From the NCBI RefSeq assembly GCF_026210795.1, contig NC_089446.1, forward strand, positions 372,001-436,000: a stretch of DNA of 64,000 bases, read 5' to 3'. The stretch comes from Rhizophagus irregularis (lineage: Eukaryota > Glomeromycota > Glomeromycetes > Glomerales > Glomeraceae). A program made the position numbers and the translations under genes. The notes beneath the pieces were generated by a model. It had not been told where the DNA came from, searched no databases, and saw only the letters and a list, made by a program, of their open reading frames with translations. This document shows, one piece after another, positions 4,741-61,800 of the stretch. Position 1 is the stretch's first letter. The number at the start of each line of letters is the position of its first letter.

Positions 4741-4854
4741 ATGGATAATCAAAGTACAAGTGCGATTAAAATGCGTAAAATTAGGAAATGGAAACCGTTA
4801 ACTAAAGAAAATTTGACCTTTCATGTTTATATTGATTTTTTAAGTATGATTTAA
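4741..4854 (+). CDS. Small hypothetical ORF, 37 aa
   Basis: ATG at 4741, just after an A-rich leader, opens a 37-codon frame starting MDNQSTSAIKMRKIRKW and ending at TAA 4852-4854. The composition looks protein-like for its first 30 residues (basic, then KPLTKENLTFHVYIDF). A possible splice donor (AAGTATGA) lies just before the stop, so it could be the first exon of something lost. No family is recognised. It sits upstream of kinase copy 1, outside the duplicated block. Confidence 0.25.
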   Translation: MDNQSTSAIKMRKIRKWKPLTKENLTFHVYIDFLSMI

Positions 4855-5050
4855 AAATAACTACAAATTAACAGTCTATTGAATAACAATCATTGATTTT
4901 TGTTTATCAAATTATTTGAATATTAATCAATATAATCGAGTATTCATTAAGTATGATAATCAAATTTGTTAAACACAAATTATAAAAAAAATAAAAATAA
5001 AAAATAAAAATAAAATTAGAAAGTACGATAATATTTTTCTTTTTTTGGTT

Positions 5051-5076
5051 ATGAGGCGTAAAATACTACGCCTCAT
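5051..5076. promoter_or_regulatory. Perfect inverted repeat upstream of kinase copy 1
   Basis: ATGAGGCGTA (5051-5060), six bases, then TACGCCTCAT (5067-5076): a 10-bp perfect dyad about 120 bp before the kinase ATG. The second kinase has a related dyad (GGCGTAA/TTACGCC) at 22446-22463 in the same relative place. It could be a binding site for a dimeric regulator or an RNA hairpin in a long leader; this is inference from position and retention. Confidence 0.5.
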
Positions 5077-5196
5077 GATCACAAAATTTATGTGGGCACA
5101 ACATGAAGTTTGATCAACAATTTGCATTTTACTAATTTATCAAGTGGAATGAACTTAAAATAATTCATTCATTCATTCTTTCTTATCGATTACATT

Positions 5197-7462: not shown

Positions 7463-9445
7463 ATCATTTAACAATGTTTTTATTTATTTATTTATTTATT
7501 TTGGGTTATTTAAACACTAAGACTAGAGTAGTAAATGTTTTACAAAATTCTTAGTTTGTAATTTAAATAATTTTAATAAATTTATTCAAATTATTAAATG
7601 TATTTACTACCGTATATTGATTTAGGCGAAAATTAAGTTTTTTTTTTAATTATCGCGTCAATCGCGCCATGATAATTATTATTTTGCGAGTTGTATAAAA
7701 ACTGTATAAAACTCGAATGTTTTACAATAATTTTTTCCTTTTGGAACCAAATTTTTTTTCATTTTTTTTTTATTGATTTTTTTTTTCCAGTTTCCTGAAA
7801 AATAATTTTTCCTTTTATTCCGGGTTCTTTTAGAACCAGAATATTTTTTCTTTATTATTTTTTTATTATTCACTTTTTCAAACTAATTTTTTTTCGGTTT
7901 ATGGAACCAAAATGATTTTTTTAAACATTTATTCCCCTTTCAGTTTTTTTTTTTTTGAACCAAAATAATTTTTTTAAAAAAAATTTATTTCTTTCGATTT
8001 TTTTTGAACTGACTTATATTTATTTAAATTTTAAATTATGTTTTTTTTTCTGTTTTTTTTTAACTGAATTATTTTATTAAAAATATTCATTTTACTCTTC
8101 AGAATGTCCAGAATTTCTTCTTTTCCTTTTTTTTTTATTAATATTTTACTCCGGTTTGTTAAGGCCAGATTTTTTTTATTTTTTTTTTCATGTTGTAAAA
8201 CTTAATATCAAGATGTATAGTAAGTAGTATTATGTTATTTTAATGATTTGATTTTTTATTTAATGATAATACTTTTGTTTACGTACGAACTCGGGACAGC
8301 CATGCACCACCTGAGTAACATACAAGGAGTGTTAGGGAATAAAAAGAACAAAAATACACTTGCTTTCAAAATTAATAATCTTTTATTATTAACCAAATGA
8401 GGAAATGGGATCTAGTTAAATACCGCGACAAGTCTAATCATTTATTTGGCGTCAGTCAAAAAAAAAAAAAAAAGAATAAACTAAAATGATAATCAAATCA
8501 CTTTTTTTTAATAACGTAATATTTGCTTGAATTCAAGTGCTGTAAGATTTTCTTTGAGTAACAGTTCTAGTACCGATTATAGGAGAGGTAACGCCAGGTT
8601 TTTATTTATTAATGTAACCTTAAATAAAAAAAGGGTTTACGTCAATTTAATTAAAAAAATTCACTATACTAATTTATAAATAATTACCAATTTCCTTTGG
8701 AATAGGGATAAATCAAAATTTTCCGATTTTTCCTTTTTCACACTATCCACAACGCGACATCCTGATGATTTTGGATCAGAAAGTGCTTTTATATATTTTC
8801 CAGAAAGATAAAAATATTACATTGCAATGTATTGGTTAGGTATAAATGATTATTTATTTATTTATTTTATGTGAAGCCGGACAGACTATTCAACAGGACA
8901 TAGTTAGGTATAAATGATCACCCTCTGCAATGATTACAATCAAAGACACCGGACATCATGTGATCCCGATCTGGTCATTCCAAAAAAACAGACACCAACT
9001 TACCAATCCACCAATCACACCATCACACAAATTACTCTAATTCACATCACCTACCTTTAAAAGAATCTCTGACATCCAAGAAATGTTATATAAGCTTCGT
9101 AATTTATTTTTCTCATATTATCGAAAAACATTCCTAGAAATATAAAGTCATAGCGATTTCTATTTTCTGATCAATCGTTGATTACGGATTTTCGAGAAAC
9201 AGTCTACCTTTACATGTAACTTATCTGTAATTTTGCTTATTCAATAAAAGATTTTTACATTATTGTTATATCACACATTTAAAAAAAAATTTTACGATTA
9301 GTATGTTATGAACAATTAAAACACATTTATTAATGCTTGCTCTTGGCCAGATATTATAGTTAACCTATAAACTGTTTCTCCTGAACACCACGTAGAGGTG
9401 GCAAGCTTCGTTCAGGCTTACCTGCTACAACCAGTTTATAATTTA
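7463..9445. other. Non-coding, T-rich
   Basis: No supported gene. 7680-8220 is a T-rich stretch with a recurring GGAACCAAA/GAACCAAAAT motif between T runs (degenerate repeat). The open frame on the minus strand there is only lysine/asparagine low complexity. 8280-9445 has mixed sequence with no coding signal. Confidence 0.55.
7680..8000. repeat. Degenerate T-tract repeat with GGAACCAAA motif
   Basis: Units of roughly 60-100 bp made of a long T run followed by GGAACCAAAT or GAACCAAAATAA recur about four to five times (near 7740, 7830 inverted-like GAACCAGAATA, 7900, 7955 and 8005 as GAACTGA). It is tandem low-complexity DNA with no coding role seen. Confidence 0.45.
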
Positions 9446-43426: not shown

Positions 43427-44222
43427 TTATTAGCAATTTAGATTAATTCAAATATTGAAATTTTACTAAAATTCTTTTCCTTTATTATATTTTAATTAAA
43501 ATATAACAACTTGAAAATTTTAAAATAAAGAAATAGCATAATAATATAAAAGTAATTTATTTATAATTATAATATACACAAAAAAATTTGTGTTTTTTTT
43601 AAATTAATGATAAATGAAATTATTAGTTGTTTTATTAAAAAAAAAAATATATTTGAATTTTAATATTTTACTTTGCATATTCCAAATACATTACACACAC
43701 ATTCATAAATATAAAAATGTTTTCCCAGCTTTTCTTTCAAGTCTATAATTACCTGCCTTCTTCTCTCAAAAAAAAAATTATTATTGAGGGTGTCCGAGCT
43801 CATCAAACCTTATGTGTTAAAATTTCGGCAATCACATAATTGGTTCCATCTATACAGTAGTTAGATTTAAGACATATGTTGGGTAGATCTAATCCGTGAA
43901 ATTTTTTCTTTACCTATGCTGTTAAAACTTTATGCATCTTTTGGGATCTCTGTCCTTTTTCGCAGTTACTTTTTTGCATAAATACTTCAAAAAACAAGCC
44001 TTTTTTATACTTAATTTCTACTGCATATGAAAACAAAAGTTTTATTAGAATGAGGTAAAATATACTGCTTTATTTTATGCAATTATAGAGGCATTTTAAC
44101 AATTAGTTAAAGAAAATTACATTGCCATTTCGGAATACCAGTAATCAAAAATGGAAATGTGAAAATTGAATAATGAGATTTTACTTTATTGTGTCTCAGT
44201 AAAAAAAAACTCATCCTAAAAT

Positions 44223-45038
44223 TTACAATCCTAATTCCTTCTCTTTTTCAAAGTTTGACAATTCCAAAGCTCGGATTTTAACTTCTCTTTCTTTAATAGA
44301 CAATTCACGTTCTTTGAGAGCAAGATGTCTTTCTTTTTCGACTAAATCTTCTTCATCCGTATCTCTGTCACGTTTTTTTGAATTTTCTTTATAGATTGAT
44401 TTTAAAACATCAGGATTATCCCATAACGCATTGGCAAGCTTTACATGTTCCTTATTAATTAAAAGAAAAAATGGTTAGTATTAAATACATGTAAGTAACC
44501 TAGTAAAAGGAAGTTATCTTGATTATTAAGAAGGTACGTAACCAACTCCTCCTTCAGAATTAGTAGACTTCTTAATAATCAAAAAGAACTTCACCTTCAC
44601 GAAAGACAGTATATATATGGCCAGAAATGAGTTTGTTCTTACTTATTTCAACTTCACTAATGCAGTTAGTAAGTGCAAAACCATGACAAACTCTTACTTA
44701 TTTCAACCTTGCTACAAGGTGCAGAGCTTTAATAGGTTCTTACTTATTTCAACCCACTAAGGTGATTAGCGAAGTGCAGAATAACTCATTTCTTTCCTTT
44801 GGTAAGCTGACTTTCTTTTAAAGCTACTTACTTTTCTACTATTTATCAAATTTCGTGCTTGACTTCTTTCTTGTTCTGTTGATGAATCTTTTAACAAAAT
44901 ATCATTCATGTGTTTGTAGAATATTCTATGAATTTTGTTAGCATGACAACCGTTCGTCTTTTGAAGACACCAACTGTCAAAGTTAATCAATGACCATTTA
45001 GCAGAGTCTTGGTTGAAGTAGGATGCGTATTCTGACAT
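44223..45038 (-). CDS. Hypothetical two-exon coiled-coil protein, 144 aa, copy 1
   Basis: Exon 1 45038-44832 (MSEYASYFNQDSAKWSL to NLINSRK, 69 aa) and exon 2 44450-44223 (EHVKLANALWDNPDVLKSIY to EKELGL, 75 aa) join in phase 0 through GTAAGT...TAATAAG. The first half is rich in aromatic and Cys/His residues with no known domain; the second half is a charged coiled coil (KERHLALKERELSIKERE). The 381-bp intron is long for this genome and contains a hairpin and a triplicated 16-bp motif. The start is the Met closest to a TATATA upstream; an in-frame Met 23 codons further up is possible. Function unknown. An identical copy lies at 56968-57783. Confidence 0.6.
44518..44752. repeat. Intron repeats: 15-bp hairpin and triplicated motif
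   Basis: TTGATTATTAAGAAG and CTTCTTAATAATCAA form a perfect 15-bp stem with a ~35-nt loop. Then TCTTACTTATTTCAAC occurs three times about 50 bp apart (near 44637, 44687, 44733). On the transcribed strand each copy reads GTTGAAATAAGTAAGA and contains a donor-like AGTAAGA. Confidence 0.65.
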
Positions 45039-45160
45039 TTTAACATAAAGTGAGTTTTTTATCGTATATAAAATGATAGAAGGTAATTTTAAGATATGAA
45101 TAAGCAACTTATATATTAATAGCTAACTTAAGGAAAATGTCCAATATTTATATTATTTTT

Positions 45161-45293
45161 CGCGACGCGCTCAAACTTAAGTATTTTTTATTTTTTGCAA
45201 CGCGCTCAAACTTAAGTATTTTTTATTTTTTGCAACGCGCTCAAACTTAAGTATTTTTTATTTTTCGTGACACACTCAAACTTAAGTATTTTA
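45161..45293. repeat. ~35-bp tandem repeat, 4 units, copy 1
   Basis: Four units of GCAACGCGCTCAAACTTAAG followed by TATTTTTTATTTTT; the outer units vary (CGCGACGCGC, CGTGACACAC). It lies upstream of the two-exon gene, so it is possibly promoter-proximal. Copy 2 at 57906-58040 differs only in T-run length. Confidence 0.85.
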
Positions 45294-45839
45294 CTATGAC
45301 TGCATGATCATGTAATATTTTGTTGGCGTATTTGATCATTTTTATTGATCACAGTTTTCTAATTAAATCAATTACAGAAGTATTTTACTATGATTGCATA
45401 ATCGTGTAACTAATAATAATTAGTCCGAAATGTTACGAAGGACTATATTTTATTCGTATCAGTTTCACAAATATCCTGTTGTCCGCCCAGCACGTGACGA
45501 TGTACATGATAACTACACTTCGGACTTGATAACAGTTTCCATTTTCTAGTAATAATTATTTTTATTTATTTTATATTTTGTTGGCGTATTTGATCATTTT
45601 TATTGATCATTGATTACTGAAAGAAATTCCCATGGTAGCAAGAGTTTCGATATGAACTAGAGTGGTGATGTTCATAAGCTTTTCCTGATAGAACTAATAG
45701 AATGAGGATAGAATAAATAGATATTGTTCTTTAAGTTATTTATTGATATTTGGCAACCGCAGAACTTTGGAATGAGACCAACAAACCTTGTACAAATTCA
45801 GTTACTATACTTGAGGAAGGGTCCAAGCCAAGCCTTGTG

Positions 45840-46465
45840 ATGATTGCTTTATGATAGATTCTGTCTTATCCTTAAGGAAACAACTGGGAGGTCCAAAGAG
45901 ACCAGTTCTTCCGCCAATTTATTTTGATCATTAACAATATTAATGGTTTTTATATCAAAATTTGCAATATCTTCAATGACCTCTGTTCTGTGAGATAATT
46001 CTGAGGTAGAACAGTTGGTAACTTTATTATTCCCTGACTCATCCAACTTCTCAATATTGTTAACAGTTTCTAGTACATACGCAGTATCAGAGGTATCACA
46101 CTGGAGTTTATTCTCCTTATTGCGTCACCTTGTTCCATCACTAACGCTTTTCTTATGCACCTCATCCAAAAATTATTCATCTCTTTCTTCTACGATGATT
46201 TTTCATGGTGGACTGCACCTGATTGAAGTTAGATGAGTTATTGTTAGGGGTATTATTACCCTTTGAGTCATTTTGCAACTGCTTCTGTTCCACTTTTGTA
46301 ATTCTATCTCTAAAGCTCAATATTCTCAGATTCTAACTCCTCGATTCTGGCCTTAAGTTTGGCATTCTCAGCATCACGCCTCATTCTCTTTTTTTACTTG
46401 TCATTATTAGAGCCTTGGCAATCCTGCGCTTAAATTCAGCTCTCATAAGAGCTAAAACATGATAT
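45840..46465 (-). pseudogene. Decayed coiled-coil gene (AEFKRRIAKAL family), copy 1
   Basis: On the minus strand LEYHVLALMRAEFKRRIAKAL, then RRDAENAKLKARIEELESEN and DRITKVEQKQLQNDSKG can be read in successive frames, and finally NYNxVNDQNKLAEELVSLD-type sequence. I recall the order RAEFKRRIAKAL-RDAENAKLKARIEELE-LQN-NNTPNNNSSNF from a large multi-copy family in Rhizophagus proteomes. Several frame breaks make this copy non-functional. It is flanked downstream by the two-exon gene in the same block. Confidence 0.65.
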
Positions 46466-47031
46466 TCGAGGTTTAAACCATCCCATTGAATTTTCACTTG
46501 CAGTGAAAATTAGAGTTATCATGAAAAATAAGTATTGTAATATAGGATTTTAGATTTTTTTTTGTGTACGTCATGTTTCAGAAACCCCGCAAATATGTAC
46601 ATTGTTTTCTTTCATCATATCTAATAAAGCTAGTTGTTTGGAAGAATCAAGTGATTTAACATTGGTTGCAGCTACTTTGAGTGATGATCAAATGTAATTA
46701 TAAATGTAATGTATGTTATTAAATTTAATTGCATCTATTACAAATAAAATATAACGTTTTATCAAACAAAAAAAAAAAAGTCTACTGGTGGAACTTATTA
46801 TAACTATTTTTGAATTAGATCTTTGATAGCTATATAAATGTATTTATTTATATTATATTTATGGTATAATAAAACCAAATTTATTACTATCAGAAGAGGT
46901 ATCATTTGAGTTTTGAATTATACTTCATAAAGTAGAAAAATGAATTTGTCACAGATTACTATTTAAAATAAATATTTATTGCGAATAAAATATACAAGTT
47001 ACATATGAGAAATTTTAATAAAAATATTCTT

Positions 47032-47094
47032 TTAGTTTTTGGAACTTTCCATTTTGTTTTGGACGAATGAAAACTTGAGCTTTATTAAAAATTT
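47032..47094 (-). pseudogene. 3' stub of the coiled-coil family gene
   Basis: The last 63 bp of the block match the 3' end of the gene at 59778-61800 (FLIK...SFVQNKMESSKN in frame) and nothing upstream of 47095 continues the match. The stub shows that the duplication broke inside that gene. Confidence 0.75.
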
Positions 47095-48235
47095 GTATAC
47101 CGAAAACTGCTAATAATTAAACGTTTACAATATGAGAATTGTTTAATATTAATCTAAAAATCTAAAAAAGAAAAAGTTGTTAACATTGTTTCATGTTAGT
47201 TTCATAACGCTATTCCACCATAATTTAGTATCTTTTTTTTTGTTTAAACTTTTAAAATAAATACTTACCGGCATATAAATAATATTTTAGTAAAAAAATC
47301 AATATTGTTATTGTTACATTTCTTGTATCCAGCATCGCTAAAGAAAAAATTTTAACTAATCATATTAAGCAATTGGTTACACTATTTTTCAGCGGAGTAA
47401 TACAAATTTGGCTAGTTAATTTCTAGGTAATATCACCAATTTGTATAACATCGTAACCTTAAATGGTAAATATATATTGTGAAATTGACTCTTACGGGTC
47501 TTACCACACTCTCGGTTACACATGTATCACTGTTAACCACAACTAATATACTTCCCATTTCATCAAAAATCATCATTAATCGTTATTGAAAACTTGCACA
47601 AAACAAACTAGATGAAATAAAGATCAACCACTCAAAAAAATCTAAGTCCCCAGATAAATTTACGTGACATGCGACGCTAAATGTCACCATGTAACCGAGG
47701 GTGGTTTGGCATTATGATATCTTTGTAGTTATACAGTTTATTATTTTTGGAAAGATTTAGCTATAAACATTTACTTTCAAATAGAAAAACACATTAAGTT
47801 TATGAAGCATTTGTGAATTGAATTTTAATTAATAACATTCAAATATTATCAACAATAACGTAAAAAAGTTAATGTCAAAAAATCAGCAGTATAGAAACAT
47901 TTGTGGTAGAATGATGGGAATTTTATTCTCAATTTCGGTATATAGTAAAAAAGCTAAAAAATAGTATAAATTACAAAGACACATGTAGTTAATTAAAAGT
48001 ATACCATATATAAATTAACTGAAAATTTCTCAAATATTATGGAAGAGTATAAATAAAAAAAAATTTTATGCAGATAAATACATATATATTATTATAAGCC
48101 TAAATATAAAAAAATTACTAAATTAAAATTTATTTTTAATTTATCAATAATAAATCCAGCTTTCAAATAAGATATAATTTGATGTAATGATCATCCAATT
48201 ATTTAATTTTAATTTTTCCGAGATTTTCTGAATTT
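47095..48235. other. Intergenic
   Basis: AT-rich; one possible MITE (47498-47714), no gene. Confidence 0.5.
47498..47714. mobile_element. Possible MITE with CTTACCACACT-like ends
   Basis: CTTACCACACTCTCGGTTAC at the left pairs with an inverted, diverged copy at the right (reads CCAAACCACCCTCGGTTAC). The end resembles that of the element at 52449 (CTTACCACACTTCCCTG). No target duplication seen. Confidence 0.35.
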
Positions 48236-48400
48236 TCCCGAAACCCATTTTTACATAAATTAATAGGATGGTTGCATGGATCAACTATTACAGTATTACC
48301 AGACAATTTCGTATGGTTGGCTCCGGCCTTCAAGTTACATGTCTTGAGGACTTGTTTGGAATTTATGGAAGGCCACCCATTTACTAGCGGGTTGGGATGA
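48236..48400 (+). CDS. Coding-like fragment upstream of the micro-exon array
   Basis: A frame reading KLIGWLHGSTITVLPDNFVW, then LAPAFKLHVLRTCLEFMEGH, ends at TGA 48398-48400. Codon use and hydrophobic patterning look real, but there is no start codon and no recognised family. It could be an exon of the array that follows or a separate gene remnant. Confidence 0.35.
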   Translation, partial: SRNPFLHKLIGWLHGSTITVLPDNFVWLAPAFKLHVLRTCLEFMEGHPFTSGLG

Positions 48401-48547
48401 GATCGAATTTTACATTATAGGACTGAATAAAAAAAAATGAATCTTTTATTAAAGTTGAGTTAGGATCCTTCTTTATGAGTTTTGAAGTATGTACTTCGAA
48501 TTTTTTATTTTAATTATTTTGAAGAAATTATTATCAGTTATTTTTTT

Positions 48548-50690
48548 CTTTTTTTTCTTATGTAGGTTAATATCTATGTATTATCATGGTTTTTGAGTAA
48601 ATCACCTTATCTGTTAAAGGTAATGAAGAATTTTTTTGAATCTTTTCTTGCAACGAAAGATATACTAATAATTTCTATTTTTTTTTTTTTGTTTTTTTTT
48701 AGGTGACCATTCTTTATGCGAGAATTTCGGTAGGGGAGTTTTTTTTTTTAGTTTTTTCTCTTTGTGAAATGATCGCTAATACTTTTATTTTATTTTATTT
48801 TTTAAACCCAATTATGATTTCAAAAATCTCAGAAAAGTTCAAAATACACTTGACTTCTATCTTTAAGATCTATCTCCAATAAATTTTTTAAATTTACTAT
48901 AGAATTTTGGTGAGGATTCTGAAGTTTTTTTTTTGTTTCTATCAACGAAACGGTTCTAATGTTTCATTTATTTTTCTCTTTTTGTAGACGGTCAGTTCCT
49001 ATAAACACTTGGATGTGTAGAATATTCAGTGAGATTGTTTTTTCCTTTAAATAATTATTCTTTTAATAAAGCATTTTTAACATTTCATTTTTTTTTTTTG
49101 CAGTCAGCCAGTTTTTTCAAGTGTTTGGACACGTGGAAATTTGGTGAGGAAGATTTTTTTACTTTTAATTAACTCTTAATGAAGCGATCACTAACATTTC
49201 GTTATTTCTTTTGTAGAGACTTGTTCTTTGGAATATTTAGATGCGTGAAAAATTTGTGTGGGTCTTACTTTGAAATAATAATTTTATAATGATTTCAGTT
49301 TTTCAGATTTTTGGACGTGTAGGAAATTTGTGAGAGAATTTTTTTTTCTTTAATTTGAATCAGTTCTTTTAATGAAATGATTAAATGATTGCTGATTTTT
49401 TTTTCTTTTTCTTGACTTTTTATAGGAATTTCCGATTTGAAACATGAATTTCAGGCAGGTCAAAGATTATTTTGAAAACTTTATTATACTTTTTTAACGT
49501 TTTATTCTATCCTATAGGAATCTATTATGGCCTCAGAACTCTGAGTAAGTTTTGAAAAACTTCATTTTAAAGAAAAAAGCATTATATATTAACGACTTTT
49601 TTTTTATTTTGTAGGACTCTGACCATGATTTAGAAATACCGTATCTTAGGTAAATTTGCGATTTAAGGTTCGAAGACTATTTTAAAACATTTTTATTCAT
49701 TTTTTTTTTGATTTTATGTAGGACTCAGATTTTATTTTGACCATTGTCTATGCGTCCTGGAGGTGAATAATGAATTTAGAGAATTTTTTTCTTTATTTTT
49801 TTTAACTCTTTCCCTTTTTTTTTTGTAGTTATCTTCAATTCAATTCATTTCGCCATAAACGATTCTTTTTGTTACATTAAAAAGATCTCTTTTAAGGCTC
49901 GGAAGGTTGAAATACAACCAGTTGCATAAAATTCAATTAAAGTGGATGATCAATATCTTTGTTTTTAAGAATATAGGTAGTATTAATTTTTATTAAATAA
50001 CCTTCTTTTTTCTAGGTTCGATTTCTGTGATTGTAGAAACAGAGATGGGTTTTTATTTTTTTTTATTGTGTGTTTTTTATCGTAATTTTTTTTTTATTGA
50101 AATGTTTCTAACTTTCAATTTTTCTAATCAGGACTACCGGATTGATGACAGAAAGTTTGGTTTGAATATTGTTTTGGAAACGGATTCATGAAGTTGAGAT
50201 CTCAGTAGATATTAGAATTTCTTTTTAAATTATATCTATAACGAAACATTTTTAACGTTTTGACTTTTCTTTTTTTTTTTTAGGTGATCAGGTAGGATGC
50301 GACTGGGCCTTTAAAATACTATTCCCTCTTAAAGGTAACTGTTAGATGGTAGTAAAATTATTTATAATAATTTTTTTAACGTATACAATTTATAATATTT
50401 TTTCTTTAACTTATAACAAAACTTGTGTTTTATTTTTTTCTATCTAGGTGATTTCTGGAAGTTTTTTTTTTTTGATTCGAGATACTAGAAATGGTAAGTT
50501 TAAAAATTGTGAAACAATTTATTTACTATTTTTTTTTTTTAATTTGGAAACGTTTTTTAATTTTATTTTTTTTAATTTCAGATTTAAATATTTGAACGCC
50601 AAAATGGTAAATTATTTTGTTTTTTTTTTTAAAGAAATGTTAATTATCTTGTCTCTACTCTTTTGTAGATTCCTTCCAGTTTTATTTTGA
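48548..50690 (+). other. Array of micro-exon/intron-like modules
   Basis: At least a dozen modules of about 90-160 bp are strung together. Each has a T-rich tract ending in TAG or CAG, a 25-45 bp piece, and a donor-like GTGAG/GTAAG/GTAAA. Acceptors include 48702, 48987, 49103, 49216, 49306, 49425, 49518, 49614, 49721, 49828, 50018, 50132, 50282 and 50447. Many spacers share AACGAAA(T)GATC-CTAACATTTC before the T tract (49184-49202, and in variant form at 48944-48965, 49067-49088, 50236-50260). Several exon-like pieces encode related peptides: QFFQVFGHVEIW (49112), GQFL-TLGCVEYS (48991), DLFFGIFRCVKNL (49218), QIFGRVGNL (49304). It is either one gene made of repeated tiny exons, now partly decayed, or a multiplied intron-like repeat. 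Confidence 0.5.
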
Positions 50691-50794
50691 TTAGAAATGT
50701 CAAACTAATGTTTCTCTTTCTTTATTGAAAAGAATTAGATGTAAGGGCTTACGATCACTGGTTAACTGATACCATCTTCTTTTGAAGCTATTTT

Positions 50795-51850
50795 TGAAAC
50801 AATAAAACAAACCAAAATGGATTAGAATAATCTCAGATAATGGAGCACATTATCATTCATCAGAACTTATGGCTATAGTCGCACATTGGAATGAATGGTA
50901 TCGAATTGATGTTTGAGATTGGCAATTTCTTAAGCCAGGAGAAGCTAAAACAACAATTGATTCCCACCATGCTGCAGTAAGTACTACTGTTATAAATAAC
51001 TTTCAATAAATTTTATATTTAAAATTACCCTTTATTTTAGATTTCCAATGCAATCAAACGTATATTCGGATTGGATATGATATCCGTGATGGAGAACATC
51101 TATCTGGTACATCGCTAGCAAATTAAACCAATCAATTTGAACCTGTAGATGAAAATTTAAACAATGTTAAAAAAAAAAGAACTAAATTCGAAACCAAACT
51201 ATAAAAGGTATTAGGTATTTCAAATTTGTTTTACTAGAGATGGCCAATTTCTGGTGAAATGATAGGTTATATATGCGCCCGATCACTTCCACATTTTGGT
51301 CCAAAGATTTCTGAACAAACTGAACCTGACCAATTCTCTACCAGGTAAATCAACTGAAATAGATTATTTTTTTCCATAAACATATATGACTAACATATTT
51401 TATAAATATAGAATCAGCTAGTATACCTGAATTTATGGATAATAATAATAGTAATAATGAATTAGATGTAAGGTAATAAATATGAAGCTTAAACAGATAT
51501 AATTCAAATTATAATCTTACTTTTTTTGCATTGAATTAATTCTATTAACGTGAATTTTCAATTTCCTATGGGATAGGCGTTGAAAAGTAATCAAAATTAG
51601 GAGAAAAGGGAAGGAAAAAGAATAAAAAAGAAGGTGAAGGAGTTGTTGAAAAGTTTTTTTTGAATGAAAACCTCAACCAAAAGGATAAAATGTCGGTAAA
51701 GTTATGTATAATGAACTTCTAATGTTCGTTGATTCTGGTGAATTAGAAGCTAAAGATATTCTAAGATAGCAACAATACAAAATTGGATCTCAGCTTATGC
51801 ATGAACATTCAAAGAACAGGCTACAGGAAATATGGTAAACACACACATAG
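50795..51850 (+). pseudogene. Decayed transposase-like multi-copy gene
   Basis: Fragments in order: WIRIISDNGAHYHSSELMAI, LKPGEAKTTIDSHHA, then after an intron (50977-51041) ISNAIKRIFGLD, and later RWPISGEMIGYICARSLPHF and ELLMFVDSGELEAKDIL. The SDNGxHYH motif recalls the second acidic residue of DDE/RNase H-fold transposases, and I recall many close relatives in glomeromycotan proteomes. Several stops and frame breaks make it non-functional. No terminal repeats were found. Assignment to a transposon class is tentative. Confidence 0.6.
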
Positions 51851-53178
51851 TATAGTATAATGAGCAGAACTTTGTTAATAATATAAAATATTAGTGAAAG
51901 AGAATTATTTAGTATATAAAAGATAAAAAAAATAGAAAAAAAAAAGCCGAACTAAACCAAATAAAGGTTTAAAACTAAATAAGAACAAAAATTAACTCAC
52001 TTTTGGTAAAATTGTTCGAAAATAAATCATTTAAAATTTGAATCAGCTAGAAATTATGGTCGGAATCTTACGTTCCTCCATAGCAAAGTCAACGTCATCG
52101 TGGAACTTTAGCGACTTGCAAATTTTGCAAGTGGCTTAGCTAGGATTGGCATTATTAATTACCATCTTTTAAAATTGGTGTATCGTATCATGTGACGATA
52201 TGACAATCCGGTAAATAGCGTTTTTAGAGATAATCTGCGTAAATCGGAATTATTAAAATTCTCCTGGATTTTTTACTTATCGGTATTCAAATCAAGATTC
52301 CAGTCAAGTGCATAGGTCACCAGCCAATTATTTTGCGGTATTCTCAAAACGGAGTAAATTAAGATCGAATTAAGTTCTAATTATCGGTATACTCTATATT
52401 GATGTTCCGATACCTAAAAAGTAAATAAAGGAGGTGGGCGAAAGTGACATCTTACCACACTTCCCTGTGATGATTTTATCACATTGTCACGTGCTAACAT
52501 GTTTACGTTTTTTATTATGTTTCTGAGGGACGTGTTTTTTTTTTACTAGCCTGATCTCTATTTGTCACTGCATTAATGTCACCTGTACTACCACGTTTAA
52601 AGTACTATTTATATTGTGACAGGGTAGTGTGGTAAGATTCCCCTGAGATCTGTTTCACAAATTCCTATTGTTTCACAAGCTTCTTTGTTCATGATACTCG
52701 TTGCAATCAATCTTTTTTTTAAACTAACGATATTGTAAAATTTGTTTCTTTTCTTTAAAAAAATTTTTTTCCTTAGAGCGCAAATTATATTAACGAAAAT
52801 ACAATCTCATAGATATGTATATTACATCGCAACGATACTTATTCAGGTGACAATATTATTTATATACATATTTGATATAGTATCGATATCACTGTATTAT
52901 ATCGCTCGATATCGATCATTTTCATCTTGTTAAATACTAATTAAAATAGCCTTTAAATAAATGTATTTTATTATAATTTATCCGAATATACTTAATTTAA
53001 AATACATAAAAGTTGAACTTATATTATTTAATTTATGGATTTTCCCATAATCGGCTGATCAGTTCTATTTTCAATATTTTTATTCCCACAGTTATTATTA
53101 AAAAGAAAAATATTTTATTTTTTTCAAAAAAAAAAATACCCACCAAATGTTTTTGCGAACTTTTCTTGTTATTTCGCT
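51851..53178. other. Intergenic with one MITE
   Basis: No gene supported. 52100-52130 has a small dyad (CACTTGCAAAATTTGCAAGTC on the minus strand, truncated in this description), and 52449-52638 is a MITE. Confidence 0.5.
52449..52638. mobile_element. MITE, 190 bp (ATCTTACCACACT ends)
   Basis: Left end ATCTTACCACACTTCCCTGT; right end inverted ATCTTACCACACTACCCTGT. The 22-bp arms have about two mismatches. It is non-coding with a CACGTG box inside; target duplication not clear. Confidence 0.65.
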
Positions 53179-53920
53179 ATGGGTAAAGTACACCGCTCGT
53201 ATAGTTCCAAAAGAAAGGCCTTGGAACGAATAAAGGCAAAAAGAAGAGAACGAAAAAAAGAAATAAGGGAACCATTAAGTCGTCATGATAAAAATGGTAA
53301 GTTATTGTTCGGTGGCGGAGCTGTACCAATGGATATGGCTTGTGCTTAAAGTTGACTGTAGACGCTCTCGCTTGGTTCATTTTTCCTTGTCTTTTAAAGG
53401 ATACTGTAGACGTCATGGATGAAGTTGGTACAGTAATGAACATAATTTACTTAACGAGTGCGCATAGTTAATCCCTTCTCCCTTCCTTTTTGGACTGCTT
53501 CGGCAGTTTATATCTCTCAACTAGAAAAACATATAGGGTTGCAAGATGATAAAATAATGGAACAACAATCACAACTCTAACAACTGCAGGGAGAGTTGCA
53601 ACAACAGCAGCAACTCATCAATAATTTGGGACAGATTGAGGTCTCCCAGGACAAACGTATACAAGACTTGGAGAAGCAGAATTCACTAATAAGAGGTAAG
53701 CTTCGTGAATATGGACTTTAGCATCAATATCCTTAACTTTTTGTTTAAAATTATAGCAAGGGAAAGTAAGATTTCTCAAGATAGTAAGAAAAATCTTCAA
53801 CGGGCGTTTGGAGCTGAAGGTCGTATTAAAGATCTAAATAGTCAAATACGATCTGTAAAATATCAGATAAATAGTCATAATTGTAATTATGTATTAAATA
53901 AAATAAATTATAAAAAATAA
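53179..53920 (+). pseudogene. Basic/coiled-coil gene, probably broken
   Basis: ATG 53179 opens MGKVHRSYSSKRKALERIKA and a 56-codon frame to 53349. Further down a frame from about 53510 reads VYISQLEKHIGLQDDKIMEQ, meets TAA at 53578-53580, then goes on QLQGELQQQQQLINNLGQIE...KQNSLIR. A 61-bp GT-AG intron (53696-53756) joins it to ARESKISQDSKKNLQRAFGA and a stop at 53918-53920. Read together this is one basic N-terminus plus Gln-rich coiled coil, seemingly a single gene with the middle exons unclear and at least one premature stop. I do not recognise the family; RNA- or DNA-binding is possible from its charge only. Confidence 0.5.
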
Positions 53921-55039
53921 ATAATATTTAATTGATTTACAATAAAAAAAAAAATTTTTTTTTATTAATATAAATTATTCTCTACTGCTGATAAAACTTG
54001 TGATCGACCTTATCAAAAATAATATTTCTTTTTTGTTTGTTTAAAATAGTAATTTTAGAATAAATACATCAGTAAAAATTCAATTTTAAAATTACCACAA
54101 TAAAAATTATTTTTATTTTGCAATGCATAATTAGCATAAGTATTCTTTGAATAATACCACTTAATAAAATCTATACGTCCTTCCAAATCTTCGAATAGCA
54201 AATATTCAAATGGCAAAGATAATTATCATGAACCCTGTTTTTTGTTAATTAATATAATCAGAAAAAAATGTCAATACAATGACATGCAGGATTTAAAAAT
54301 TATGATTACATTAAATGATCATCATATAATTTGAGTAAATTTTTTAATATGACATGCTTCGAATATAGCGTAATTAGAAAAAAATATGCAGATAATTACA
54401 TTAAGATCATAAAAATTTGTAAATTGTTGCTACGCAAGATCGTAATATAGAGTTCAAGAAATTTATTATAAATATAGAGCCTTTTCTCCATTTCTCTCAT
54501 TTCAAATAATTTTTTCTCAATCACTCTCAATTAAATCAATTGTTTTTCAAAATACTTTTTTTTCAATCACTCCAAATATTTTTTTTCATTCGTAATATTT
54601 TTTATTCATAATATTTTTTTTTTTTTATTAGTAATAATATTTTTTATATTCATAATTATATTTTTTTTTCACTCGTAATAATTCATATTTTTTATAATAT
54701 ATTTTTTATTCACAAAACATTTTTTTATTATAATATTTTTTTTATATTCATTATATTTTTTTTTTATTCGCAAATCTTTTTTTTTATTATAATATTTTTT
54801 TTTTCATTCGGTAATAATTTTTTTTTTTTATTAGTAATAATATATTTTTATTCGCAAACCTTTTTTTTTCATTCATAGTAACAATATATTTTTTTTTATT
54901 CACAAACTTTTTTTTTATTCATAATATTTTTTTTTCAGTCTTAATAATATTTTTTTTTTTTTTAGTAATAATATTTTTTTTATACTTTTTTTTATTTCAT
55001 ATTTTTTTTTATTTGTAATAATATTTTTAATACTAAAAA
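53921..55039. other. Intergenic ending in extreme T-rich low complexity
   Basis: From about 54530 to 55030 the plus strand is T runs broken by ATTCATAATATT, ATTCGCAAAC and TAGTAATAATA, a degenerate repeat that reaches the start of the trihelix-RS gene. Confidence 0.7.
54530..55030. repeat. T-tract/ATTCATAATA degenerate satellite
   Basis: About fifteen or more short units combine 7-11 T with ATTCATAATA, ATTCGCAAA or ATTAGTAATAATA. Apparent expansions of a T-rich unit; no coding. Confidence 0.7.
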
Positions 55040-55692
55040 ATGGCCCAATTAAATGCTGGTGGTGGAATTGGAGTAGTTAATTATTACGTTACGTGGCCGA
55101 ATGACGGTGTTCTCTCATTAATTCAATATCGGCGGTTTTTTCAGCAAGAATTTTGTAGAACTCCAATATATGAACAAAAACAAATCTGGAACCAAGTAGC
55201 TCAAAATATAAATTTGGACCACCCAAACTTCGCCCCGACAAAAAAACAATGCAGGACTAAGTGGAACTCATTAAAGTCGGGATACGAAAATTTAAAAAGA
55301 TTATTAAATGGAAATCCAGAAGGATTTCCAACGCACACCCCAACTCTTCATGACGAACATTTTCATGAAGAGTTGTCAGATGAATTCTGGCTCGCCGAAC
55401 GTAACTATTTATTATTTAATTGATTTTTTTTTATTTAATTTATCACATTTATAATTAACTAATTGTTTTATTTTTAGCAAGAGTTCGTGCTGCAAGGAGG
55501 AATCAGGTGGACCGTAGAAGATACGAATATCGAGAGCGCAGGCGCTCTCGATCCCGATCCTCCCATCACCGTCACGAGCGCGGGCGCTCTAGATCTAGAT
55601 CTCCTCGTAGAGAGCGTAGAGAGCGTAGAGAGCGCAGGCGCAATTATTCCCCTTACCCCCGTGATCGAGACCGACACCGTTATTATCATTAA
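55040..55692 (+). CDS. Trihelix/Myb-SANT-like protein with RS-rich tail, 191 aa
   Basis: Exon 1 55040-55400 and exon 2 55478-55692 join in phase 1 (GTAACT...TTTTTAG). Residues 15-120 form a Myb/SANT-like (trihelix or MADF-type) DNA-binding domain: VTWPNDGVLSLIQYRRFF, IWNQVAQNIN, KKQCRTKWNSLKSGYENLKR, then EELSDEFWLAE. Exon 2 encodes an almost pure Arg/Ser/Glu tail (RERRRSRSRSSHHRHERGRS, then SPRRERRERRERRR), like SR splicing factors. The exon is GC-rich against its surroundings and its DNA is made of small palindromes and a 9-bp tandem repeat, so two other frames are also open; these are shadows. The domain belongs to a large Rhizophagus family as I recall; the RS tail would suggest nuclear-speckle or phosphorylation-controlled behaviour. 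Confidence 0.78.
55535..55640. repeat. GC-rich palindromes inside exon 2
   Basis: CGAGAGCGC-AG-GCGCTCTCG is a perfect 9-bp dyad; GAGCGC-GG-GCGCTC and AGATCTAGATCT follow, then AGAGCGTAG in tandem three times. The repeats encode the RS/RE-rich tail and explain its multiple open frames. Confidence 0.8.
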
Positions 55693-56584
55693 ATAATTTT
55701 TTTTTATTTTTTATTTTATATTTTTTATTATTTTTTTTTATATTTTACATTTTATGCTATAATTCTTTTTCTATTTTATAAAATTTTTATCTATATTCTA
55801 TTTTTTATTTTATTTTTATTTTTATATTTTTTATTATATTTTTTTTATATTTTTACATTTTTATATTATAATTTTATATTATAATTCTTTTCTGTCTATA
55901 AAATTTTTATATTTTTATATTTTATTTTTATTTTTATATTTTTATATTTTATTTTTATTTTTATATTTTTTACATTTTTATATTATAATTTTTTTCTGTT
56001 TATAAAATTTTTTATTTTTTTATTTTTATTTTTATATTTTATAATATATATATTATTTTGAAAATAAAATTCAGTACAATGATCATTGCATCATCATTCA
56101 TTTAAGCGTTGTGTTTGTAATACAAGTTGAAATTATATAATTGTTTGAAAAAAATTGACTATCCGTAATGGAAAAGTGATTAATGTTTTTAAAAAAAAGT
56201 ATTTTTTTTTAAAAATATAAAGAATAAAAAATAATATAAATTTTATTTATTTTTTTTTGTTGTAACGCACATTCTTTATTTATAAAATTTTGTAATACTA
56301 TCCACTAACTCCATATTATTTCTGGAAGTACTTATAAAAATTAATACTTAAACTATTCTAAAGGCTATACTAAACTATATACTATGCTAATTCTACTAAC
56401 CATAATTTTATACCTAAATTAAAAAACCCGTTTCAATTTTGGTCTATTATAGATGGCCCAGCGTAGATTGTCTCCATTTACATTCAAGCTACAAAGACGT
56501 CAATTTTTTTGTCCTCCCTCGTAAGTAAGCGCTGAAAACTTAGATATATTTTACTATTATCTCTGTATACAACTATCTTAAATC
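55693..56584. other. AT low complexity and short spacer
   Basis: 55693-56060 is ATTTTTATTTTTATATTTTT-type low complexity. 56060-56584 is ordinary AT-rich spacer; around 56455-56520 an open stretch (MAQRRLSPFTFKLQRRQFF) is GT-terminated and could be a tiny first exon, but nothing follows before the duplicated block. Confidence 0.45.
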
Positions 56585-56967
56585 TTGGTTCCATCTATAC
56601 AGTAGTTAGATTTAAGACATATGTTGGGTAGATCTAATCCGTGAAATTTTTTCTTTACCTATGCTGTTAAAACTTTATGCATCTTTTGGGATCTCTGTCC
56701 TTTTTCGCAGTTACTTTTTTGCATAAATACTTCAAAAAACAAGCCTTTTTTATACTTAATTTCTACTGCATATGAAAACAAAAGTTTTATTAGAATGAGG
56801 TAAAATATACTGCTTTATTTTATGCAATTATAGAGGCATTTTAACAATTAGTTAAAGAAAATTACATTGCCATTTCGGAATACCAGTAATCAAAAATGGA
56901 AATGTGAAAATTGAATAATGAGATTTTACTTTATTGTGTCTCAGTAAAAAAAAACTCATCCTAAAAT

Positions 56968-57783
56968 TTACAATCCTAATTCCTTCTCTTTTTCAAAGTT
57001 TGACAATTCCAAAGCTCGGATTTTAACTTCTCTTTCTTTAATAGACAATTCACATTCTTTGAGAGCAAGATGTCTTTCTTTTTCGACTAAATCTTCTTCA
57101 TCCGTATCTCTGTCACGTTTTTTTGAATTTTCTTTATAGATTGATTTTAAAACATCAGGATTATCCCATAACGCATTGGCAAGCTTTACATGTTCCTTAT
57201 TAATTAAAAGAAAAAATGGTTAGTATTAAATACATGTAAGTAACCTAGTAAAAGGAAGTTATCTTGATTATTAAGAAGGTACGTAACCAACTCCTCCTTC
57301 AGAATTAGTAGACTTCTTAATAATCAAAAAGAACTTCACCTTCACGAAAGACAGTATATATATGGCCAGAAATGAGTTTGTTCTTACTTATTTCAACTTC
57401 ACTAATGCAGTTAGTAAGTGCAAAACCATGACAAACTCTTACTTATTTCAACCTTGCTACAAGGTGCAGAGCTTTAATAGGTTCTTACTTATTTCAACCC
57501 ACTAAGGTGATTAGCGAAGTGCAGAATAACTCATTTCTTTCCTTTGGTAAGCTGACTTTCTTTTAAAGCTACTTACTTTTCTACTATTTATCAAATTTCG
57601 TGCTTGACTTCTTTCTTGTTCTGTTGATGAATCTTTTAACAAAATATCATTCATGTGTTTGTAGAATATTCTATGAATTTTGTTAGCATGACAACCGTTC
57701 GTCTTTTGAAGACACCAACTGTCAAAGTTAATCAATGACCATTTAGCAGAGTCTTGGTTGAAGTAGGATGCGTATTCTGACAT
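56968..57783 (-). CDS. Hypothetical two-exon coiled-coil protein, 144 aa, copy 2
   Basis: Exon 1 57783-57577 and exon 2 57195-56968, the same model as the gene at 44223-45038. One substitution in exon 2 (CACATTC here, CACGTTC there, near 57056) changes Arg to Cys in ...LKERELS (reads LKECELS here). Everything needed for splicing is retained, including the hairpin and triplicated intron motif. Function unknown. Confidence 0.6.
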
Positions 57784-57905
57784 TTTAACATAAAGTGAGT
57801 TTTTTATCGTATATAAAATGATAGAAGGTAATTTTAAGATATGAATAAGCAACTTATATATTAATAGCTAACTTAAGGAAAATGTCCAATATTTATATTA
57901 TTTTT

Positions 57906-58040
57906 CGCGACGCGCTCAAACTTAAGTATTTTTTATTTTTTTGCAACGCGCTCAAACTTAAGTATTTTTTATTTTTTTGCAACGCGCTCAAACTTAAGTA
58001 TTTTTTATTTTTCGTGACACACTCAAACTTAAGTATTTTA
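57906..58040. repeat. ~35-bp tandem repeat, 4 units, copy 2
   Basis: Same array as 45161-45293; two of the T runs are one base longer. Confidence 0.85.
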
Positions 58041-58586
58041 CTATGACTGCATGATCATGTAATATTTTGTTGGCGTATTTGATCATTTTTATTGATCACA
58101 GTTTTCTAATTAAATCAATTACAGAAGTATTTTACTATGATTGCATAATCGTGTAACTAATAATAATTAGTCCGAAATGTTACGAAGGACTATATTTTAT
58201 TCGTATCAGTTTCACAAATATCCTGTTGTCCGCCCAGCACGTGACGATGTACATGATAACTACACTTCGGACTTGATAACAGTTTCCATTTTCTAGTAAT
58301 AATTATTTTTATTTATTTTATATTTTGTTGGCGTATTTGATCATTTTTATTGATCATTGATTACTGAAAGAAATTCCCATGGTAGCAAGAGTTTCGATAT
58401 GAACTAGAGTGGTGATGTTCATAAGCTTTTCCTGATAGAACTAATAGAATGAGGATAGAATAAATAGATATTGTTCTTTAAGTTATTTATTGATATTTGG
58501 CAACCGCAGAACTTTGGAATGAGACCAACAAACCTTGTACAAATTCAGTTACTATACTTGAGGAAGGGTCCAAGCCAAGCCTTGTG

Positions 58587-59212
58587 ATGATTGCTTTATG
58601 ATAGATTCTGTCTTATCCTTAAGGAAACAACTGGGAGGTCCAAAGAGACCAGTTCTTCCGCCAATTTATTTTGATCATTAACAATATTAATGGTTTTTAT
58701 ATCAAAATTTGCAATATCTTCAATGACCTCTGTTCTGTGAGATAATTCTGAGGTAGAACAGTTGGTAACTTTATTATTCCCTGACTCATCCAACTTCTCA
58801 ATATTGTTAACAGTTTCTAGTACATACGCAGTATCAGAGGTATCACACTGGAGTTTATTCTCCTTATTGCGTCACCTTGTTCCATCACTAACGCTTTTCT
58901 TATGCACCTCATCCAAAAATTATCCATCTCTTTCTTCTACGATGATTTTTCATGGTGGACTGCACCTGATTGAAGTTAGATGAGTTATTGTTAGGGGTAT
59001 TATTACCCTTTGAGTCATTTTGCAACTGCTTCTGTTCCACTTTTGTAATTCTATCTCTAAAGCTCAATATTCTCAGATTCTAACTCCTCGATTCTGGCCT
59101 TAAGTTTGGCATTCTCAGCATCACGCCTCATTCTCTTTTTTTACTTGTCATTATTAGAGCCTTGGCAATCCTGCGCTTAAATTCAGCTCTCATAAGAGCT
59201 AAAACATGATAT
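58587..59212 (-). pseudogene. Decayed coiled-coil gene (AEFKRRIAKAL family), copy 2
   Basis: Duplicate of 45840-46465 with the same frame breaks, so the decay predates the duplication. One substitution is visible near 58923. Confidence 0.65.
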
Positions 59213-59777
59213 TCGAGGTTTAAACCATCCCATTGAATTTTCACTTGCAGTGAAAATTAGAGTTATCATGAAAAATAAGTATTGTAATATAGGATTTTAG
59301 ATTTTTTTTTTGTGTACGTCATGTTTCAGAAACCCCGCAAATATGTACATTGTTTTCTTTCATCATATCTAATAAAGCTAGTTGTTTGGAAGAATCAAGT
59401 GATTTAACATTGGTTGCAGCTACTTTGAGTGATGATCAAATGTAATTATAAATGTAATGTATGTTATTAAATTTAATTGCATCTATTACAAATAAAATAT
59501 AACGTTTTATCAAACAAAAAAAAAAGTCTACTGGTGGAACTTATTATAACTATTTTTGAATTAGATCTTTGATAGCTATATAAATGTATTTATTTATATT
59601 ATATTTATGGTATAATAAAACCAAATTTATTACTATCAGAAGAGGTATCATTTGAGTTTTGAATTATACTTCATAAAGTAGAAAAATGAATTTGTCACAG
59701 ATTACTATTTAAAATAAATATTTATTGCGAATAAAATATACAAGTTACATATGAGAAATTTTAATAAAAATATTCTT

Positions 59778-61800
59778 TTAGTTTTTGGAACTTTCCATTT
59801 TGTTTTGGACGAATGAAAACTTGATCTTTATTAAAAATTTACTATCCTGTTCGGCAATAATAAGAGGGAAAAAGGCAAAATCTACTTCATTTTTTTTAAT
59901 ATTTCCACTCTCCCAGGATCCTTCCATAAGATGTGTTTCTATATGGGCACCAGATTTAAACCATTGAATTTTTGGTATCGGTTCTTGAGCTTTCAAACAA
60001 AACCAAAGTTTCATGCCAGTACGAATAACATTTTCGGCTTCGGAGTATAAAACTTTCTTCCTTTCTTCATCAATCATTTCACGATACTTATCCATTTTAT
60101 TCAATATATTAATAACAAGTTTCTTCATATGTGGATGATTAGATTTAGCGAATCCACGAGATCCTAGAGCAGCATAATTATGCTTGTTGGCGAATTTTAA
60201 CTGGAGTTATAGTAGTAATGCTGTCTTTTCCTTCGCGACGTTTAGCCAATTGGTTTGTATACCAAACGAGATTTTGAGTATGATATACTATATACGATTC
60301 AAGATGTCCATCAGCAAAAGTCTTAGAATTTTCAGAAAAACTATATAAATTATCCGCATTATTAAATATTGTTTCAAGAATCATTCGTTGAAGAGCAGCT
60401 GCTAAATAATTTTTAATCTCTTTAGAATTGAGATTTGTTTTACACTCATATTTAGTCAATAAATTTTTAGCAGCATTCTCATCAATTTTAATAGATTTTC
60501 CTTTAACTTTAGTAAAATCAGCTAATAAATATTGAAATTTTTCAATATCTTTGGTTAATTGAATAGGATTGTTAAATGTGTCATCACTCCAACGAACGTT
60601 TGTTGCACTTCCTAGAGCAGCCTGATAACCTGATGCTTCATCGTTAGCTGATTTTGCTTCTTTGCGTAACTCGTTTGCTTCTTCTTGAAGTTGACTTATA
60701 TGTTCTTCGTAGAATAATTTCATTTTATCGTTACATTCTTGAAGTCGGTTTACACGTTCTTCATACTCTGGCTTAATTTTACTTTCACGTTCTTGTAGTT
60801 GATTTATTTGTGTTACGTATTCTGATTTCTGATGTTTTATTTGCGTTTCGTATTCCGATTTCATTTTATCGTTATGTTCTTGCAGTTCTTTAATTTGTGT
60901 TTCATATTCCGATTTCATTTTATCGTTATGTTCCTGCAGTTGTTTTATTTGTGTTTCATATTCCGATTTCATTTTATCAAAATTGAAAGTTATTTTGTTA
61001 TAATCATCTATAAGCTCTCTAGTATGACTTGTTTCTGTTTGATCCGCTTGTGATAAGAGTTCTGAATTTTGTTTACGAAGTCTATCATTTTCGGCTAATA
61101 GTTCATTTGTGACCGCTTTTTTTTGCTTAAGTAATTCGGCATAATATGGATTTGTAATACAATGATATCCTTCCATATCGTGACTTGTCTTATGAGTTTT
61201 TAAGGTAGTTCTCAAAAATGCAATTTTTGCTTGAATCTTTTGATGAGTCATAAATCTTAAAACTGAACGTTGCTCAACGCTCATTTGTCCTATTGTTTTG
61301 ATAATCAAATTAGCATTCTCAAATATTATTTGTAAATAATTAAATATAAAATCTAATAATTCATTTCTTTTTTTATCATCAAAATTGGAATCACGAATAT
61401 CTTTACATCTCTTAATTAAATCCAAACAAAAATTATAAGAATATGAATTAATCATTCTCGCATTAAATATTTCATCTGTTTCGTTCTTAATTATGTCCAA
61501 TCCTATTTCAATATTTTTTTGTTCGGAACTTTTTCTTTCTTCTAAAACGAGGATTATCCATCTAACGAGATCATTTTGCCAATATTCGTCGTTTCCGAAC
61601 CATTCTGCGGTGCGCCATTGCGTTTGATCAATCTTTTCCTGCTTCAAAAGTGCGGGAGGAGAAGTGGTAACGGAAGAGGATGTAGATGACGAAGGTTGAG
61701 ATACAATATTTTGTGAAGGAGGTGAATTTTGTCGTTGAGGAGATACCACTTTAGCATACGAAGTCATCTGTTTATTTTCGGCTGAATCCTGCCCACTCAT
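59778..61800 (-). CDS. Coiled-coil family protein with a frame break near the 3' end
   Basis: ATG at 61800 opens a 540-codon frame ending ITPVKIRQQA-stop at 60178. The family continues in the next frame from NYAALGSRGFAKSN (about 60166) to the stop at 59778, matching DVYSALRCRGF...HLMQGAF of the paralogue at 9-1622. So a one-base shift near 60172 seems to cut off the last ~125 residues. Layout: Ser/Pro/Gln-rich start (residues 1-50), a helical domain shared with the paralogue (60-210), a coiled coil with 18-residue repeats (DKMKSEYETQIKQLQEHN, about 270-360), then the conserved LADFTKVKG...TPVKIRQ domain (410-538). No known domain. It is head-to-head with the Hsp70-like gene at 62498, 697 bp away. 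It may still make a 540-residue protein; a sequencing error in the frame break is possible. Confidence 0.75.
60835..60985. repeat. 54-bp coding tandem repeat
   Basis: Three near-identical 54-bp units on the minus strand encode DKMKSEYETQIK-LQEHN in the coiled coil of the gene above. Length changes by whole units would keep the heptad register close (18 residues). Confidence 0.85.

Follow-up and report, generated by a model that had tools for sequence, protein, structure and literature searches.

What kind of element is formed by a row of very short exon-like pieces, each set between a T-rich acceptor and a donor-like motif and repeated along one strand of a fungal genome? We addressed this question for an array located in a stretch of 64,000 nucleotides of Rhizophagus irregularis (NCBI RefSeq assembly GCF_026210795.1, contig NC_089446.1, positions 372,001 to 436,000), hereafter called the window. 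The window is part of the contig that we numbered C18, and the genome searched comprises 146.7 Mb in 32 contigs. The original prediction, made from the letters of the window, proposed either a gene made by repeated duplication of an exon-intron module or an introner-like repeat. Our analysis points to a different answer, to which we give a probability of roughly two in three: the window would hold a decayed, non-coding array of modules, several of whose better-preserved relatives lie inside CACTA-type transposons and have hairpins at the donor and the branch site.

A tandem array of exon-intron modules in the window

Splice signals were scored with a model consisting of donor, branch and acceptor matrices trained on 78 introns from other loci, which were selected by a pattern favouring preserved introns. 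On the plus strand, region 48401-50800 yielded 13 chained introns with a score of 101.9, and the same region scored 0 on the minus strand. By comparison, 100 order-2 Markov shuffles gave a mean score of 9.4 and a maximum of 27.9, and no 2.4-kb tile lying outside the array exceeded 16.2. T-tract acceptors, short pieces and donors recur along the plus strand with a median unit spacing of 137 bp (Table 1).

Sequence profiles obtained from other loci recognize the same modules. With three C4 modules as its sole source, a profile gave two strong matches in the window (E 4.7e-9 and 2.1e-10) and two weaker ones (E 0.0037 and 0.0014). After iteration on eight loci other than the window and its copies on C10 and C13, this profile recovered six window modules at E<0.01, and it returned nothing at that threshold when run on shuffled sequence (10 windows and 60 regions). 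Strong similarity is limited to about six modules (48.6-49.4 kb and 50.2 kb), the remainder being weakly similar. A profile restricted to introns was weaker, with two window matches at E<0.01 and none in shuffles. With a covariance model built from 40 introns of other loci, eight of the nine best window matches fell within 48475-50732 on the plus strand (best E 0.0044, the others above 0.01), and three window matches end exactly at predicted intron ends. Because shuffles give neither the profile matches nor the signal chain, we conclude that the array pattern is real and more than an effect of base composition. Both the one-strand succession of acceptor, short piece and donor and the self-similarity of the modules beyond T-richness, as initially described, are thus confirmed. 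At a larger scale, copies of the window array occur on C10 (99%) and, in part, on C13 (94%), and a pattern derived from window-type exons, with up to three mismatches allowed, matched only the window and its C10 copy.

A genome-wide family of modules with structured introns

Tandem exon-intron modules form a large family in this genome, of which the window copy is one member. An iterative profile seeded with one window module and two C4 modules was run on the window and 12 loci, one of which is the C10 copy, and identified 55 modules at E<0.01; in its shuffle control, one match (E 0.76) appeared in round one of four and the later rounds were empty. Copies of the module follow one another head to tail along a single strand. 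As regards duplication, the idea of a repeatedly copied exon-intron module is therefore upheld by independent profiles, a single strand, regular spacing and the existence of many arrays.

Well-preserved arrays (L020, L034, L044, L051, L052 and others) have a median unit spacing of 126 bp. Exons are about 36 nt long (median of 133), and the median intron length of the arrays ranges from 79 to 96 nt, with about 90 nt in the well-preserved ones. GT..AG ends, a branch motif and a pyrimidine tract occur in 40 aligned introns, which were chosen by such a pattern. A hairpin-bearing intron starts with GTAAGTTTC, in which AAGTTTC is the 5′ arm of a donor hairpin beginning at donor base +3; this hairpin is followed by a T-rich stretch, by a second hairpin, GAAACGTT..TAACGTTTC, whose 3′ arm contains the end of the branch motif, and finally by a T-tract and AG. 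The branch-site-like block noted early on in the spacers of the window corresponds, in better-preserved relatives, to one half of a hairpin, the window copy itself being devoid of hairpins. The donor and branch hairpins have 168 and 171 exact matches in the genome, respectively, with none for their controls, and a 20-base branch-site hairpin allowing up to two mismatches has 1,379 matches versus 6 for the reversed control. No match to the donor hairpin pattern was found in prokaryote and viral collections, and the searches for the family covered this one fungal genome. A known RNA family was dropped as a candidate, as Rfam gave no match in L020, L034, L051, L052 or the window.

Two other arrangements were seen among these loci. 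In L020, a stretch rich in pyrimidines lies upstream of the array, and its complement is found in a purine-rich, exon-like stretch late in the array (inverted matches at 2325-2556 and 4041-4228), and L034 and L044 show similar tracts. The 9.5-kb region L054 contains intron-model matches on opposite strands, at 1908-4268 (+) and 5280-7493 (-).

The stems of both hairpins covary. Stem positions of the 40 aligned introns pair in 95.5% of cells, compared with 88.5% after shuffling. Changes on both sides affect 12 of the 23 stem pairs (7.6 in shuffles) and amount to 79 cells, versus 22.4 ± 4.5 in shuffles and 3-12 when the partner was slid. In hand-anchored columns of the branch helix, which are misaligned, full helices numbered 45 of 56 compared with a mean of 33 and a maximum of 39 in a swap control that is itself weak; the counts from the 40 aligned introns take their place. 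The folding energy of 40 introns sampled from the 78 has a mean z of -5.5, and predicted folds pair donor bases +3 to +6 in 75 of the 78 introns and the branch A in 49. When the arrays were segmented by splice signals only, mean folding z values were -4.8 for L020, -4.8 for L034, -2.2 for L051 and -4.3 for L052, and 0.0 and -1.1 for the arrays on C4 (L013) and C7 (L016). By this measure, the window-type arrays either lost their hairpins or come from a branch that never had them.

The donor hairpins have a consistent polarity. Among 77 donor palindromes in other loci, 74 have GT at exactly one end, two at both and one at neither, and a branch-plus-AG pattern lies downstream on the GT side in 68 of the 76 that bear GT. 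Across the genome, palindromes of one type number 165, as against the 168 oriented GT matches; a few of the listed palindromes bear GT at either end, and one or more, C5:3180117 among them, is absent from the listed GT set. Since a palindrome is strandless and GT nevertheless stands on one side, with the branch and AG patterns on that side, the hairpin is linked to a splice donor.

Arrays inside CACTA-type transposons

Several well-preserved arrays are the interior of DNA transposons bounded by terminal inverted repeats (TIRs), with ends shared with a Tnp2-bearing element. CACWG TIRs, starting CACT or CACA, were found in L020, L019, L051 and L056, and four of the five elements read at both ends have 3-bp target duplications. 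The ends of L020, CACAGGTCGAA, lie at 679 and 5969 and are each flanked by TTA; those of L019 and L051 read CACTGGTC(A/G)AATGA, with duplications AAA and TCA, respectively, and L056 has CACAGG ends with a TAA duplication. A third family, consisting of L052 and L053, is bounded by CATCAGCAAGTTT and shows a target duplication of at most 2 bp. Allowing up to three mismatches, family-A ends have 82 and 74 copies in the genome (controls 0), and one family-B end has 24 copies.

The proximity of arrays to such ends was counted for the 58 clusters into which the first 100 of the 171 branch-hairpin matches (contigs C1-C15) group. In the expected orientation, 24 clusters have a family-A end no more than 9 kb away, and one has such an end in the other orientation; for clusters with at least two matches, the proportion rises to 18 of 26. 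L057, an 8.8-kb family-A element that has only its outer parts in common with L020, contains a piece matching Transposase_21/Tnp2 (PF02992, E 3.4e-8, above the curated cut-off), and has no array. Pieces of a hAT transposase (PF05699, E 2.4e-12) are found at 3504-5850 of the reverse complement inside L056, an array-bearing CACTA-type element. The window copy is old. It has the array, and no transposon frame was found for it: region 47001-56700 shows no clear end repeats, and a search for the ends of window-type arrays on C11, C1, C7 and C28 gave no clear result.

Coding capacity and alternative explanations

Several pieces of the window array had been read as variants of one peptide (FGHVEIW, LGCVEYS, FRCVKNL, FGRVGNL). 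These peptides are present, but not in one continuous frame: the longest frame of the spliced chain begins just before LGCVEYS, the next piece reads SASFFKCLDTWKF and not FGHVEIW, and the exons after LGCVEYS read in frames other than those of the quoted peptides. Exon lengths of 0, 1 and 2 modulo 3 number 27, 51 and 55 among 133 exons from 16 loci, some of which are near-copies of each other. In none of 16 arrays is the longest spliced frame above the 95% point of a null with rotated exons, a value equalled in L019, L024 and L016 (chains of three, one and three exons), and every one of the 11 arrays whose chain has eight exons or more is interrupted by stops in each frame. The six longest pieces gave no Pfam match at E<0.1. 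Because the exons keep no reading frame, the coding part of the duplicated-module proposal, and with it an unusual way to build coding sequence, is not supported. A coding effector gene was rejected on account of the lost frame and the missing Pfam match for the six pieces. A related view holds that a protein-coding micro-exon family, for example of secreted effectors, was captured and multiplied by transposons, and that the copies seen are pseudogenes. Schistosome micro-exon genes and aphid bicycle genes encode secreted proteins and also have many tiny exons in a row, and a peptide-like core is common to some exons of different loci here. Unlike in those genes, no frame is kept through the spliced exons of the arrays; exon lengths, stops in every frame, the Pfam result and the equal divergence of exons and introns reported below all make this origin quite unlikely.

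The hairpins could instead be DNA palindromes, for example binding sites of a transposon protein or palindromes perfected by template switching, whose covariation is not related to RNA. The location of arrays inside transposons and the balance of G-U and A-C cells in our larger set of hairpins would fit this view, which we nonetheless judge unlikely given that GT and the accompanying branch and AG patterns lie on one side only, that oriented GT matches and palindromes are almost equally numerous genome-wide, C5:3180117 notwithstanding, and that the hairpin-free window array still has its splice-signal chain. Introners, which spread by inserting into genes one intron at a time, would also account for many related introns with predicted stable structure, and fungal introner-like elements are described as structured. 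The repeated unit studied here includes an exon, occurs in tandem and, in several arrays, lies in transposons with a fixed orientation; the loci read, for which no gene annotation was used, are tandem arrays and not single copies in unrelated genes, L028, L040 and L041 having few units and no gene assignment. Structure is also reported for Amoebophrya introners, in which both intron ends pair with each other (PMC7789003), whereas the two hairpins described above are local to the donor and the branch site. The introner-like alternative of the original prediction is accordingly not supported and judged very unlikely. A chance pattern would be favoured by the T-richness of the region and by the shortness of the ungapped repeats that a repeat tool reported; it is extremely improbable given that shuffles of the same composition reproduce neither the profile matches nor the signal chain.

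Several observations nevertheless weigh against a decayed non-coding array related to hairpin-bearing arrays in CACTA-type transposons. The introns of the window have a mean folding z of -0.4, and end motifs in the window are limited to single weak matches at 12342 and 49746, none framing the array. Of the 58 clusters, 34 lie away from any family-A end and none is near a listed family-B end, although families B and C may explain some of the clusters away from family-A ends. L057 has no 3-bp duplication, with TGG and TGA at its ends. Further pair types in the stems show no excess (25 versus 24.8 in shuffles). An inequality between G-U and A-C cells is expected if RNA pairing on this strand is under present selection; the 31 versus 18 cells counted in the 40 aligned introns (p 0.085) are suggestive, and no bias is left in a larger set of 105 hairpins (22 versus 23), so that RNA-level selection could not be retained on this ground. 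In close copies, exons and introns diverge to a similar degree with no difference in constraint, which fits neutral decay after insertion. Selection on exons was rejected for lack of this difference. The window and its C13 copy differ at 8 of 202 exon sites and 9 of 201 donor sites, and many changes fall at CpG sites in pairs L020-L029, L052-L053 and L019-L051; alignments L019-L051 and L034-L044 contain large gaps, and the rows for flanks are unreliable in this comparison. Finally, splicing of the array is predicted from sequence signals only.

Proposed mechanism and relation to known systems

If the arrays are non-coding as we propose, the interior of such an element would be a transcription unit that is dense in introns and grew as exon-intron modules were duplicated. 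The array would be transcribed and spliced into a non-coding RNA, and the hairpins would act on splicing by holding the donor and the branch site in stems, thereby controlling access to them. Arrays may grow and shrink by exchange between modules, and array elements are probably non-autonomous CACTA-type elements moved in trans by the transposase of relatives like L057. One conjectural use is that splicing would take the element out of host transcripts and make insertions less harmful. More tentatively, these elements might represent a new transposon cargo, in which roughly a dozen micro-exons alternate with introns bearing donor and branch hairpins and which would serve as a spliced non-coding RNA or as a splice-out cassette, be selected at the RNA level and be spread in trans by the CACTA machinery.

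The transposon frame is of a known kind. The elements resemble non-autonomous CACTA (EnSpm/CMC, Plavaka-like) transposons in their CACWG TIRs, their 3-bp duplications in four of five cases and the ends that they have in common with a Tnp2-bearing element; they differ in that the array-bearing interior consists of tandem micro-exons and structured introns, and such ends were not found for the window copy. This interior was not found described in the open-access literature searched. The SP7 effectors of R. irregularis are likewise a repeat-built family, whose proteins combine a signal peptide with 6-11 hydrophilic repeats (PMC11333574); in contrast, the arrays keep no frame, the comparison being one of descriptions and not of sequences.

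Features and surroundings of the window array

Table 1. Features predicted in and around the window array (positions in the window)
Feature	Position	Strand	Evidence
Whole array, 13 predicted introns with tiny exons between	48487..50787	+	Splice-signal chain
Predicted exon, 31 nt	48566..48596	+	Signal chain
Predicted intron	48910..48987	+	Signal chain; covariance model E 0.04, identical ends; profile match 48902-48973 E 4.2e-5
Predicted exon, 41 nt, LGCVEYS piece with an in-frame stop upstream	48988..49028	+	Signal chain; module 48992-49094 E 4.7e-9
Predicted intron	49029..49103	+	Signal chain; covariance model E 0.56, identical ends
Predicted exon, 40 nt, FGHVEIW piece	49104..49143	+	Signal chain; module 49109-49212 E 2.1e-10
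Predicted intron, CTAAC branch block	49144..49216	+	Signal chain; covariance model match 49135-49216 E 0.0044
Predicted exon, 41 nt, FRCVKNL piece	49217..49257	+	Signal chain
Further module, FGRVGNL piece and spacer	49303..49378	+	Profile E 0.0037
Predicted intron	49545..49614	+	Signal chain; covariance model E 0.16, identical ends
Predicted exon, 35 nt	49615..49649	+	Signal chain
Predicted exon, 41 nt	49722..49762	+	Signal chain
Predicted intron	50205..50283	+	Signal chain; profile match 50208-50276 E 0.0014
Predicted exon, 51 nt	50284..50334	+	Signal chain
Predicted exon, 46 nt	50448..50493	+	Signal chain
Predicted exon, 30 nt	50635..50664	+	Signal chain
Array-holding segment, second copy on C10	47096..56588		98.9% over 47096-54057, 96.7% over 54058-56588

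The 9.5-kb segment 47096-56588 that holds the array is flanked by a 3.25-kb direct repeat (43840-47094 and 56585-59840) with 99.75% identity. The C10 copy of this segment stops within a few bases of the 3.25-kb repeats, neither of which lies beside it. Both repeats contain four tandem units of about 35 bp with TTTTTCGCAACGCGCTCAAACTTAAGTATTTT (45153-45292 and 57901-58039), which have a weak match to the intron profile. Positions 51437-53643 are missing from the C13 copy, the alignment jumping from 51436 to 53644 without a gap on C13, which corresponds to either an insertion in the window or a deletion on C13. Just downstream of the array, 50821-50913 encodes IRIISDNGAHYHSSELMAIVAHWNEWYRIDV, a piece with no Pfam match that belongs to a repeated family with 110 matches in the genome; this open reading frame fragment was considered as part of the array and rejected as a separate family, which among the loci compared occurs in the window and in the copies on C10 and C13 only. 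Further on, the open reading frame at 55037-55423 encodes a Myb/SANT-like DNA-binding domain (PF13837, E 4.2e-11).

Implications

If our explanation is true, transposons filled with tandem structured introns would bring mobile DNA and splicing together in an unusual way. It raises the questions of whether the modules are spliced, whether the hairpins help or hinder splicing, whether insertions are thereby made harmless and whether new exons and introns are seeded in this way. With 168 and 171 exact hairpin copies in one symbiotic fungus, these questions can be addressed with RNA reads. Two-thirds of R. irregularis repeats are reported as unclassified (PMC11075540); the arrays may account for some of these repeats and could mislead gene prediction in this genome.
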